A program made the position numbers and the translations under genes. Below, in pieces: positions 10,507 to 52,464 of a DNA stretch of 64,000 nucleotides. The notes under the pieces are model-generated. The model made no database searches. It had not been told where the DNA came from and was given only the letters and a program-made list of their open reading frames with translations. Position 1 is the first letter of the stretch. Each line of letters starts with the position of its first letter. Origin of the DNA: Solicola gregarius (lineage in GTDB: Bacteria > Actinomycetota > Actinomycetes > Propionibacteriales > Nocardioidaceae). The DNA lies in contig NZ_CP094970.1 of assembly GCF_025790165.1 (NCBI RefSeq), positions 4,340,001 to 4,404,000 on the forward strand, read 5' to 3'.

Positions 10507-10529
10507 GGTTTCCGAGCCACCCGCCCCGC

Positions 10530-10586
10530 TGGGCATGACGTTCGGGTGGGCTTTCGCGGCGTGTCGCGACTCGAACGTCATGCCCA
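10530..10586. terminator. 15-bp perfect inverted repeat after the ABC gene
   Basis: Arms TGGGCATGACGTTCG (10530-10544) and their exact complement (10572-10586) enclose a 27-base loop. It is probably the terminator of the ABC gene, though there is no T-run and the loop is long; an operator for the next gene is the alternative. Confidence 0.6.
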
Positions 10587-12771: not shown

Positions 12772-13124
12772 TGCGTGAGGAGTACCTTGAGCGCGACCAG
12801 CACGAGGCCGAGAACGAGGTTGACGGTCATCGCGAGAGCGACCATCCGCCGGACCGCCCCGGTCGAGAGCGCCGACGCCGCAGCCCAGGCGGTCTGCCCG
12901 ACAACGGCAACTCCCAGCCCGAGCCAGGCGCTGCTCGCGTCCGACAACCCTGCCATCGCACCGATGGCGACCGCCACCGCCGGCGGGACAACGGCTCCGG
13001 CGATCGGCCACTCCCGCCCCGCCGCCCGACGAATCGTTGCTCGTCCTGCGCGGCTGAACGCGTGCGTCGTGCCGAACACGTCGCTACGTCGATCCTGGCT
13101 TCCGTTCGTTCGCGAGTGGCGCAA
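12768..13124 (-). CDS. small membrane protein, probably 5'-truncated
   Basis: Up to 118 codons encode two or three hydrophobic segments (GAVVPPAVAVAIGAMAGL, LGLGVAVVGQTAWAAASAL, MVALAMTVNLVLGLVLVALK), preceded by a basic SRAGRATIRRA stretch. The only start in the open frame is a poor TTG (13122-13124), just inside the inverted repeat 13109-13173, and a stop lies 18 bases further upstream. This looks like the C-terminal part of a longer membrane protein whose 5' end was lost. I do not recognise the family. Confidence 0.5.
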   Translation of the reverse strand: MRHSRTNGSQDRRSDVFGTTHAFSRAGRATIRRAAGREWPIAGAVVPPAVAVAIGAMAGLSDASSAWLGLGVAVVGQTAWAAASALSTGAVRRMVALAMTVNLVLGLVLVALKVLLTH

Positions 13125-13173
13125 GTCCCTTACTGAAGCGCCTTACTAGCAACGGATCTGCGCCACTCGCGAA
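13109..13173. repeat. 15-bp perfect inverted repeat
   Basis: Arms TTCGCGAGTGGCGCA (13109-13123) and their exact complement (13159-13173) surround 35 bases containing CCTTACT twice. It overlaps the 5' end of the truncated membrane-protein gene and lies upstream of the SulP gene. It may be an insertion that truncated the former or a regulatory structure. Confidence 0.6.
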
Positions 13174-35111: not shown

Positions 35112-35150
35112 GTCGCCGGGGCCACGCCTAGCACGGCAATGGTGCGCTGG

Positions 35151-35269
35151 GCACGGCAAATTCGCCCTGTTCGATGCACGTTTACCATGTTTACATGGTA
35201 AACGTGCACATTGCATGGCAGATTTGCCGTGTAGGGCGACTGTTTACCATGTTTACATGGTAAACGTGC
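35151..35269. repeat. tandem 57-bp repeat with AT-rich palindromes between convergent genes
   Basis: Two diverged 57-bp units (35151-35207 and 35213-35269) each end in a hairpin TTTACCATG-TTTA-CATGGTAAA. The first has a 14-bp stem (35176-35189/35194-35207), the second a 10-bp stem (35242-35251/35256-35265). A third partial unit (GCACGGCAA) starts at 35131. The unit starts also form short inverted pairs (GCACGGCAAAT against ATTTGCCGTG). It is a bidirectional terminator or a protein-binding array. Confidence 0.7.
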
Positions 35270-35276
35270 GGCCGGG

Positions 35277-46345: not shown

Positions 46346-46347
46346 CC

Positions 46348-46591
46348 GCCGGCCTGCGGGGCTCGCAAGCTCACTCCTCAGCCGTCGCTACCTTCACCGC
46401 CGGCCTGCGGGGCTCGCAAGCTCACTCCTCAGCCGTCGCTACCTTCACCGCCGGCCTGCGGGGCTCGCAAGCTCACTCCTCAGCCGTCGCTACCTTCACC
46501 GCCGGCCTGCGGGGCTCGCAAGCTCACTCCTCAGCCGTCGCTACCTTCACCGCCGGCCTGCGGGGCTCGCAAGCTCACTCCTCAGCCGTCG
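46348..46591. repeat. 51-bp perfect tandem repeat (minisatellite), five copies
   Basis: Units start at 46348, 46399, 46450, 46501 and 46552, with the last truncated at about 46591. They appear identical over 51 bp (GCCGGCCTGCGGGGCTCGCA...). The array duplicates the end of the PAC2 gene: each unit reads on the minus strand as ...GGTAGCGACGGCTGA. It also holds a small hairpin GCTTGCG-AGCCC-CGCAGGC. It contains no spacers, so it is not a CRISPR. Confidence 0.95.
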
Positions 46592-51117: not shown

Positions 51118-51210
51118 GCAGCGATACCAAGTTCACCAGGTATCGCCCACTTGGCTAGGCGTCGACGCCCGGTGAGGTGCAGCGATACCTAGTGAACTTG
51201 GTATCGCTGC
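51118..51210. repeat. 93-bp palindromic element, copy A
   Basis: The outer arms GCAGCGATACCAAGTTCAC (51118-51136) and their exact complement (51192-51210) extend inward with few mismatches. Each arm itself contains GCGATACC...GGTATCGC. It shares both ends and exact length with the element at 52372-52464, while the middle 33 bases differ. Confidence 0.8.
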
Positions 51211-51317
51211 ACCGGATCGAGCGCGATCTGTCCACAGCGGCAACCCGTGGATGGGGTGTATCCACAAGTCAGCATGCGCGGCCGACGAACAACTGTTGAG
51301 ACACCAACGCTGCCGGT

Positions 51318-52307
51318 ATGAGCGATTCATTCCGAAGTTGGGTAAGCCGCCGAGGCGGATTTTTCAGCCGGGCCGAGGCAAAGGACTGCGGATTCAGCGA
51401 CAGAGACATCCAGGGCGCCGTACGCAGTGGGCGCTGGATTCGGCTGAGGCGTGGATACTACGCGTACGCCGAGTACGTCGCGGAACTCGACCCGCCCGCA
51501 CGGCATTGGCTGTTGGCGCGCGCGGTCCTGCACCGGCTCGGTGAGCGGTATGTCGCCGTAGGCGTGACGGCCTGTATCGCGCACGGTATCGACACCTGGG
51601 GTGCCGACCTCGCAACTGTGCACGTCGCGAGACTCGACCATCGCTCGTCGATTCGAGAAGCGGGCGTCGCCTTCCATGACATGCCCGTCGATGGCGGCCG
51701 CGATGTTGTTTCTGTCGACGGTGTGCCCGTCATCAGGCCGGCTCGCGCCGTTTGGCAGGCGAGTTGCGAGCTCTCGACCGAGGGCGCATTCGTGTGCATG
51801 AACTCGGCACAGCACAAACGCTGCGTCGACGAGCCAGAGCTCTACCGCGTAGGCGAGTCGTTCGAACGTTGGCCCGGCTCGCGTACGGCGCGTCTCGCCT
51901 TCTGGCTCAGCGATTCCCGTATTGAAACCGTGGGGGAGTCGCGCACGTACTTCCTGTGCTGGGAGTTCCACCTGCCACGGCCGCAACCGCAGTTCGAGGT
52001 CTACAACGCGAATGGCCGGTTGATCGCGCGCACGGACTTCGCCTGGGTCGAGGCGCGGCACGTCGCCGAGTTCGATGGCAAGGTGAAGTACCTCAGATAC
52101 CTGCGGCCGGGCGAGACGGTAAGCGAGGCGATCGTACGAGAGAAGCGCCGAGAGGATCTCGTCCGAGCGGAACGATTCGGCATGTCACGTGTGGTCTGGC
52201 TCGACGTCGAGGGCCGCAACAGGCCACGTACCGCGTATGCCCTCCAGGACTCGATCGACCAATCGGCGAGGCTCTACACCCGAAACCGTACGACCATCGT
52301 GGCCTGA
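51318..52307 (+). CDS. AbiEi-type antitoxin-domain protein with nuclease-like C-terminus
   Basis: The 329-residue protein has an N-terminal winged-helix typical of type IV AbiEi antitoxins (SRAEAKDCGFSDRDIQGAVR, RWIRLRRGYYAY). It is followed by a conserved VTACIAHGIDTW-type middle domain. The C-terminal region (LIARTDFAWVEARHVAEFDG, KVKYLRYLRPGE) resembles DUF559/Vsr-like nuclease folds. No AbiEii toxin gene is adjacent. It is bracketed by two 93-bp palindromic elements, and its role is unknown. Confidence 0.8.
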   Translation: MSDSFRSWVSRRGGFFSRAEAKDCGFSDRDIQGAVRSGRWIRLRRGYYAYAEYVAELDPPARHWLLARAVLHRLGERYVAVGVTACIAHGIDTWGADLATVHVARLDHRSSIREAGVAFHDMPVDGGRDVVSVDGVPVIRPARAVWQASCELSTEGAFVCMNSAQHKRCVDEPELYRVGESFERWPGSRTARLAFWLSDSRIETVGESRTYFLCWEFHLPRPQPQFEVYNANGRLIARTDFAWVEARHVAEFDGKVKYLRYLRPGETVSEAIVREKRREDLVRAERFGMSRVVWLDVEGRNRPRTAYALQDSIDQSARLYTRNRTTIVA

Positions 52308-52371
52308 CTTCTGCAGCACAGCGGTCCTGTCATCCGCGCCGCCGGGCCGACCGGTTCCGGCAGCGCGGCCC

Positions 52372-52464
52372 GCAGCGATACCAAGTTCACCAGGGATCGC
52401 CCCACTTCCCTGGGCACCGATGCCTAGGTCCGTACGCGATACCTGGTGAACTTGGTATCGCCGC
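52372..52464. repeat. 93-bp palindromic element, copy B
   Basis: It begins GCAGCGATACCAAGTTCACC and ends with the near-complement GGTGAACTTGGTATCGCCGC. The first 23 and last ~28 bases match copy A at 51118-51210 with three differences. Together they bracket one gene. Confidence 0.8.

Follow-up and report, generated by a model that had tools for sequence, protein, structure and literature searches.

A gene for an AbiEi-type protein with a predicted nuclease domain, bracketed by dispersed triple palindromes in Solicola gregarius: candidate master locus of a selfish repeat system

The window analyzed here is a stretch of 64,000 nucleotides from the genome of Solicola gregarius (G000). Within it, a single gene encoding a protein of 329 amino acids is located between two palindromic elements of exactly 93 bp each (Table 1) and is adjoined by metH and a gene encoding a HAD hydrolase. 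A first-pass annotation, made from the nucleotide sequence alone, had already placed two elements of this length around one AbiEi-like gene, and their positions were confirmed. The elements are inverted copies of each other with 82% complementarity over the full length (direct identity 70%) and are separated by 1161 nt. Each element is composed of three palindromes: palindrome A of 26 nt (GCGATACC...GGTATCGC, also given as GCGATACCAAGTTCAC..GGTATCGC), a middle palindrome B of about 35 nt whose consensus is close to CACTTCCCTAGGCGTCGATGCCTAGGGAAGTG, and A' in inverted orientation. The elements had been described as having near-identical ends and different middles; they are real, but their middles are not unrelated, being homologous, diverged copies of B. 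An 18-nt arm of the element occurs four times within the window (up to three mismatches), compared to 0.01 expected occurrences, and an Rfam search of the region gave no match.

Table 1. Features of the bracketed locus, in positions of the window.
Feature	Position	Strand	Details
Upstream 93-bp element	51118..51210	.	A 51121-51146, B 51147-51181, inverted A' 51182-51207
Gene for the presumed trans-acting enzyme of the element family (329 aa), with AbiEi-type DNA-binding domain and EDxHD/Vsr-like nuclease	51318..52307	+	
AbiEi_4 winged-helix region, aa 8-51	51339..51470	+	PF13338, E 1.5e-9; structural match to AbiEi 6y8q
Predicted nuclease domain, aa 202-318	51921..52271	+	Structural match; invariant residues
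Downstream 93-bp element, oriented opposite to the upstream one	52372..52464	.	A 52375-52400, B, A' 52436-52461

In a domain search of the protein AbiEi_4 (PF13338) was the sole match, and a sequence search of the PDB as well as NCBIfam yielded no meaningful match. An AlphaFold2 model (pLDDT 93.2, pTM 0.88) combines an N-terminal fold corresponding to the AbiEi antitoxin 6y8q (Foldseek E 1.8e-5, Z 11.3) with a C-terminal domain whose nearest structural match is the homing endonuclease I-Bth0305I (3r3p; Z 12.0, rmsd 2.3, 97 residues) and which also resembles Vsr (1cw0, Z 9.9). DUF559 is weakly matched by a few members of the homologue family. Within the nuclease domain E207, D240, E251, D253, G254, K257, E275, R278, and E279 are invariant across 19 homologues; judging from the fold, these residues probably include the catalytic ones. 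The antitoxin-type N-terminus and nuclease-like C-terminus proposed by the first-pass annotation are thus borne out by the PF13338 match and the modeled fold, and what the databases label as an orphan antitoxin is predicted to combine a DNA-binding part of antitoxin fold with a nuclease of the homing type. As had also been noted there, a partner toxin is missing: no gene for an AbiEii nucleotidyltransferase lies beside the AbiEi-like gene.

For the analysis of homologous loci, 80 named loci were collected from a scan of GTDB genomes with a five-sequence subset as query, the full homologue alignment being too diverse. The 350 nt upstream of each gene were aligned with the 350 nt downstream, and flanks mispaired between loci served as control. 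The median score was 40, compared to 11 for mispaired flanks, and 63 of 78 named loci lay above the 99th percentile of the control; loci from relatives behaved in the same way. Altogether 79 of 94 non-redundant loci, including the one of the sister species G001 with a score of 25.0 just below the cut of 25.6, carry on both sides a matched palindromic element that is specific to the locus; its two copies are inverted in 62 cases and direct in 17, while 15 loci are without matched flanks. The threshold was reached by just one of 202 other genes from these stretches. Within distant homologues from the whole phylum approximately 12 of 27 exceeded their own control maximum and about half had no matched flanks. 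The same bracketed architecture is found at scattered loci in many genera.

The Solicola genome itself encodes 13 genes of the nuclease type, 10 of which each have a bracketing element of their own, and three of which lack matched flanks. Three further genes with an AbiEi_4 domain and no nuclease are without any bracketing element. The AbiEi-nuclease paralogues are at most 41% identical, so that each represents a distinct, single-copy gene. Three homologues (G023:C1:3805405-3806315, G058:C1:2360806-2361721, and G058:C1:2587026-2587938) appear to be split into two adjacent matches and are probably decaying master genes. A tandem array of part-elements with a period of 22 bp lies beside an AbiEi-nuclease gene at L235 (1119-1445), and repeated half-elements are located downstream of such a gene at L097.

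A genome-wide scan detected the element family of the locus at 13 sites in G000. Three of these are compound, two being extended or rearranged and one carrying an extra partial copy, and throughout the simple copies the spacing from A to A' is 61 nt. In 57 relatives (up to one mismatch) the family is absent; the single match, in G054, has an unrelated core. This search of the genome and its relatives had been proposed by the first-pass annotation, which regarded many copies at unrelated genes as the mark of a general terminator repeat. Such copies do exist, and the elements are located close to gene 3' ends, as would be expected of ordinary terminators or of chance hairpins beside the gene. 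Nevertheless, this explanation is hardly credible and a general terminator repeat was ruled out, given the locus-specific match on both sides of the homologous genes, its near-complete lack at control genes, and the organization of the elements as multi-palindrome units of about 90 bp with exact ends.

Dispersal was then assessed in 14 genomes with a concatenate of 17 elements. Dispersed copies were found in all 14, with 21 to 72 raw matches each, many elements being counted on both strands; among the matches listed, each belongs to the element of the respective genome. This corresponds to at least 31 distinct sites in G058 and at least 21 in G023. Aligned copies, 20 from G058 and 19 from G023, have exact common ends and unrelated flanks and are multi-palindrome units of about 90 bp. 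The 12 bp outside the ends of the G058 copies (L196-L215) follow a spaced consensus that is symmetric (G.C.C.G..G.C on the left, G.C..C.G.G.C on the right) and represents either degenerate longer ends or a target preference. Pairs of elements about 0.6-1 kb apart in G058 and G023 were considered as remnants enclosing decayed AbiEi copies; this was rejected, as they enclose other host genes. At one site in G023 (L190, G023:C1:735300-738800), two inverted elements about 1 kb apart enclose a methyltransferase-like ORF, perhaps by chance or perhaps as cargo.

The dispersal also bears on the defense or toxin-antitoxin cassette between repeated ends towards which the first-pass annotation had leaned. 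The bracketing itself stands, and PADLOC models for AbiEi match the N-terminus of the protein. The ends, however, are not private to one cassette, as the 13 genomic sites demonstrate, and they are dispersed on their own, while the complete architecture recurs across genera. With no toxin partner adjacent and no homologue in plasmid or phage collections at E 1e-5, by which carriage on such replicons was dismissed as well, nothing supports a defense or toxin-antitoxin function, and we regard this reading as very improbable.

Six of the other element families of G000 likewise have further copies within the 242 kb sampled. Several families are represented in the window: a clear element (GTTTACCATGTTTACATGGTAAAC) at 35131-35273 belongs to the family of a second AbiEi-nuclease gene, the presumed master being located at G000:C1:431226, and copies of the L235, L274, and L278 families, cognate to other AbiEi-nuclease paralogues, are located at 593-651, 10526-10586, and 13111-13170. 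A repeat of a different kind, a 51-bp unit present 4.8 times with 100% identity, lies at 46346-46591 directly 3' of a PAC2-family gene. The similarity of the elements is correlated with that of the proteins (Mantel rho 0.32, permutation maximum 0.12), and paralogues of the same genome with 35-50% identity carry unrelated elements. Therefore, the element follows the protein and not the genome.

Another, unrecognized transposase could move the elements, with the AbiEi-nuclease unit being a passenger that uses them as ends or insertion sites. This would be in line with the fact that hydrolytic nucleases do not transpose DNA alone, and the copying activity of the AbiEi-nuclease is one that we infer. 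A common passenger, however, predicts one element family per transposase, whereas here each paralogue has its own family and element similarity tracks the protein. Moreover, a search for Y1_Tnp (PF01797) found no member in 12 genomes, with E. coli detected as positive control, and RAYT activity was rejected for these genomes. We therefore consider the passenger explanation quite unlikely.

The locus was also compared with that of the sister species G001. Its ortholog, with 54% identity, is situated in the same gap between metH and HAD in inverted orientation, whereas the C-terminus of the neighboring metH is 92% identical. It is bracketed by a different palindrome, GCGCGGTTTGCCTTGG-NN-CCAAGGCAAACCGCGC, which is dispersed in G001 and absent from G000, G004, and G006. 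In three other genera without the cassette metH and HAD are only 0-30 nt apart, so that the place taken by the bracketed gene is elsewhere a tight junction; a comparison of loci with and without the cassette had been suggested by the first-pass annotation. At the G001 counterparts of nine G000 element sites, the G000 family is missing. Their flanks align, and the intergenic gaps differ beyond the element, so that clean empty sites had to be discarded because the gaps are too diverged to give clean insertion ends. Gaps of G001 orthologous to G000 element sites (L179, L183, L177, and L184) contain palindromes of other families, which suggests shared preferred gaps for elements in both species.

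The comparison of G000 and G001 caught no insertion event, and no signal of a target-site duplication was obtained at the copies in G058 (p 0.17) and G000 (p 0.66). When copies within a family were compared, compensatory changes in the stems did not exceed those of shuffles, with the exception of a weak excess of pairing in the middle palindrome of G000. Apart from this excess, selection for hairpins at each copy was rejected on these grounds; the stems are as expected of neutral selfish copies and not of structures maintained per site.

Regulation would be a further explanation of the arrangement: the AbiEi domain would repress its own gene via the flanking palindromes, and the dispersed copies would be operators of a regulon. 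AbiEi antitoxins are reported to bind to inverted repeats located in the promoters of their own genes (PMC7319586), and the upstream element of the locus ends about 107 bp before the start codon. Several observations are at odds with operators. A matching element is also present downstream of the gene; the copies are exact units of three palindromes, about 90 bp long, whose flanks are unrelated; at no fewer than four of the 11 dispersed G000 sites, two convergent ORFs face the element with their 3' ends (simple ORF calling), and no promoter is expected there; and the element families are lineage-specific. An autoregulator with a regulon is therefore unlikely.

The arrangement resembles that of RAYTs and REPINs, in which a single-copy enzyme gene lies between two inverted palindromic elements whose family is dispersed in intergenic regions, with one family per enzyme (PMC2817692, PMC3116915). 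Common to both are the single-copy gene between mostly inverted elements, the doublets of inverted palindromes, and a gene-specific, lineage-specific family dispersed between genes, with an own family for each paralogue. In contrast to the Y1 HUH transposase RAYT, the enzyme predicted here consists of an AbiEi winged helix-turn-helix and an EDxHD/Vsr nuclease; the element is a triple palindrome A-B-A', no GTAG head is found in the elements aligned, and the hosts are Actinobacteria, with no Y1_Tnp gene in the 12 genomes searched. As the defining Y1 enzyme is absent, the present system would work like REPIN-RAYT without being a member of it. The protein shares the fold of its catalytic domain with I-Bth0305I and Vsr, but its gene lies outside an intron or intein and is tied to dispersed palindromes, and it possesses an AbiEi-like DNA-binding part. 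It shares the N-terminal fold and PF13338 with the type IV AbiE antitoxin AbiEi, but carries the additional nuclease domain, has palindromes on both sides and dispersed, and is not adjacent to an AbiEii toxin gene. Short dispersed palindromic or inverted-repeat elements are also known as TIRtrons, CGTC REPs, and MITEs, of which CGTC REPs were reported without a dedicated transposase (PMC3733652). Here, in contrast, the elements are consistently partnered by a particular gene that does not encode a transposase, and no target-site duplication was seen.

Taken together, we consider it probable that the gene, with its flanking elements, is the master locus from which a selfish system of repeats is spread, similar to REPIN-RAYT and based on a non-homologous enzyme. 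The first-pass annotation had offered as a second option that the protein binds its own flanking palindromes; here it appears to have been right, and these palindromes are probably the substrate. The AbiEi-type winged helix would bind the A and B palindromes and the EDxHD/Vsr-like domain would nick or cut there, whereupon the A-B-A' elements of about 90 bp may be copied in trans to intergenic sites elsewhere. Strand transfer would have to rely on host repair, since EDxHD enzymes are hydrolases. The simplest route would be host repair of the cut in a homing-like manner, or else a mobilization of extruded or single-stranded palindromes. The gene would remain single copy and, like a RAYT with its REPINs, coevolve with the elements of its own family. 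Weighing against this view are that no movement of an element was observed, that part of the homologous loci have no matched flanks, that the enzyme type is hydrolytic, and that compensatory changes are missing from the stems.

In the open-access literature we found no earlier description of AbiEi or DUF559 proteins linked to dispersed palindromes. Neither the class of the enzyme nor the anatomy of the element corresponds to any system found in this literature, although the organization parallels that of REPIN-RAYT. By extension, and with somewhat less assurance, we favor the view that many solitary actinobacterial "AbiEi antitoxin" genes with a DUF559/Vsr-like C-terminus encode the enzymes of a selfish system that is REPIN-like but of a non-HUH kind. 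An EDxHD nuclease would here promote the spread of its cognate triple palindrome, with up to about ten independent pairs of enzyme and element coexisting in one genome. If this is true, a large class of actinobacterial genes currently annotated as orphan antitoxin or DUF559 would be assigned a function. It would also establish a second, non-homologous type of enzyme behind dispersed bacterial palindromes, with a bearing on the repeats for which no dedicated transposase was reported (PMC3733652). Selfish palindrome systems would then have arisen by convergent evolution, and the spread of such repeats would become testable with a hydrolytic nuclease.
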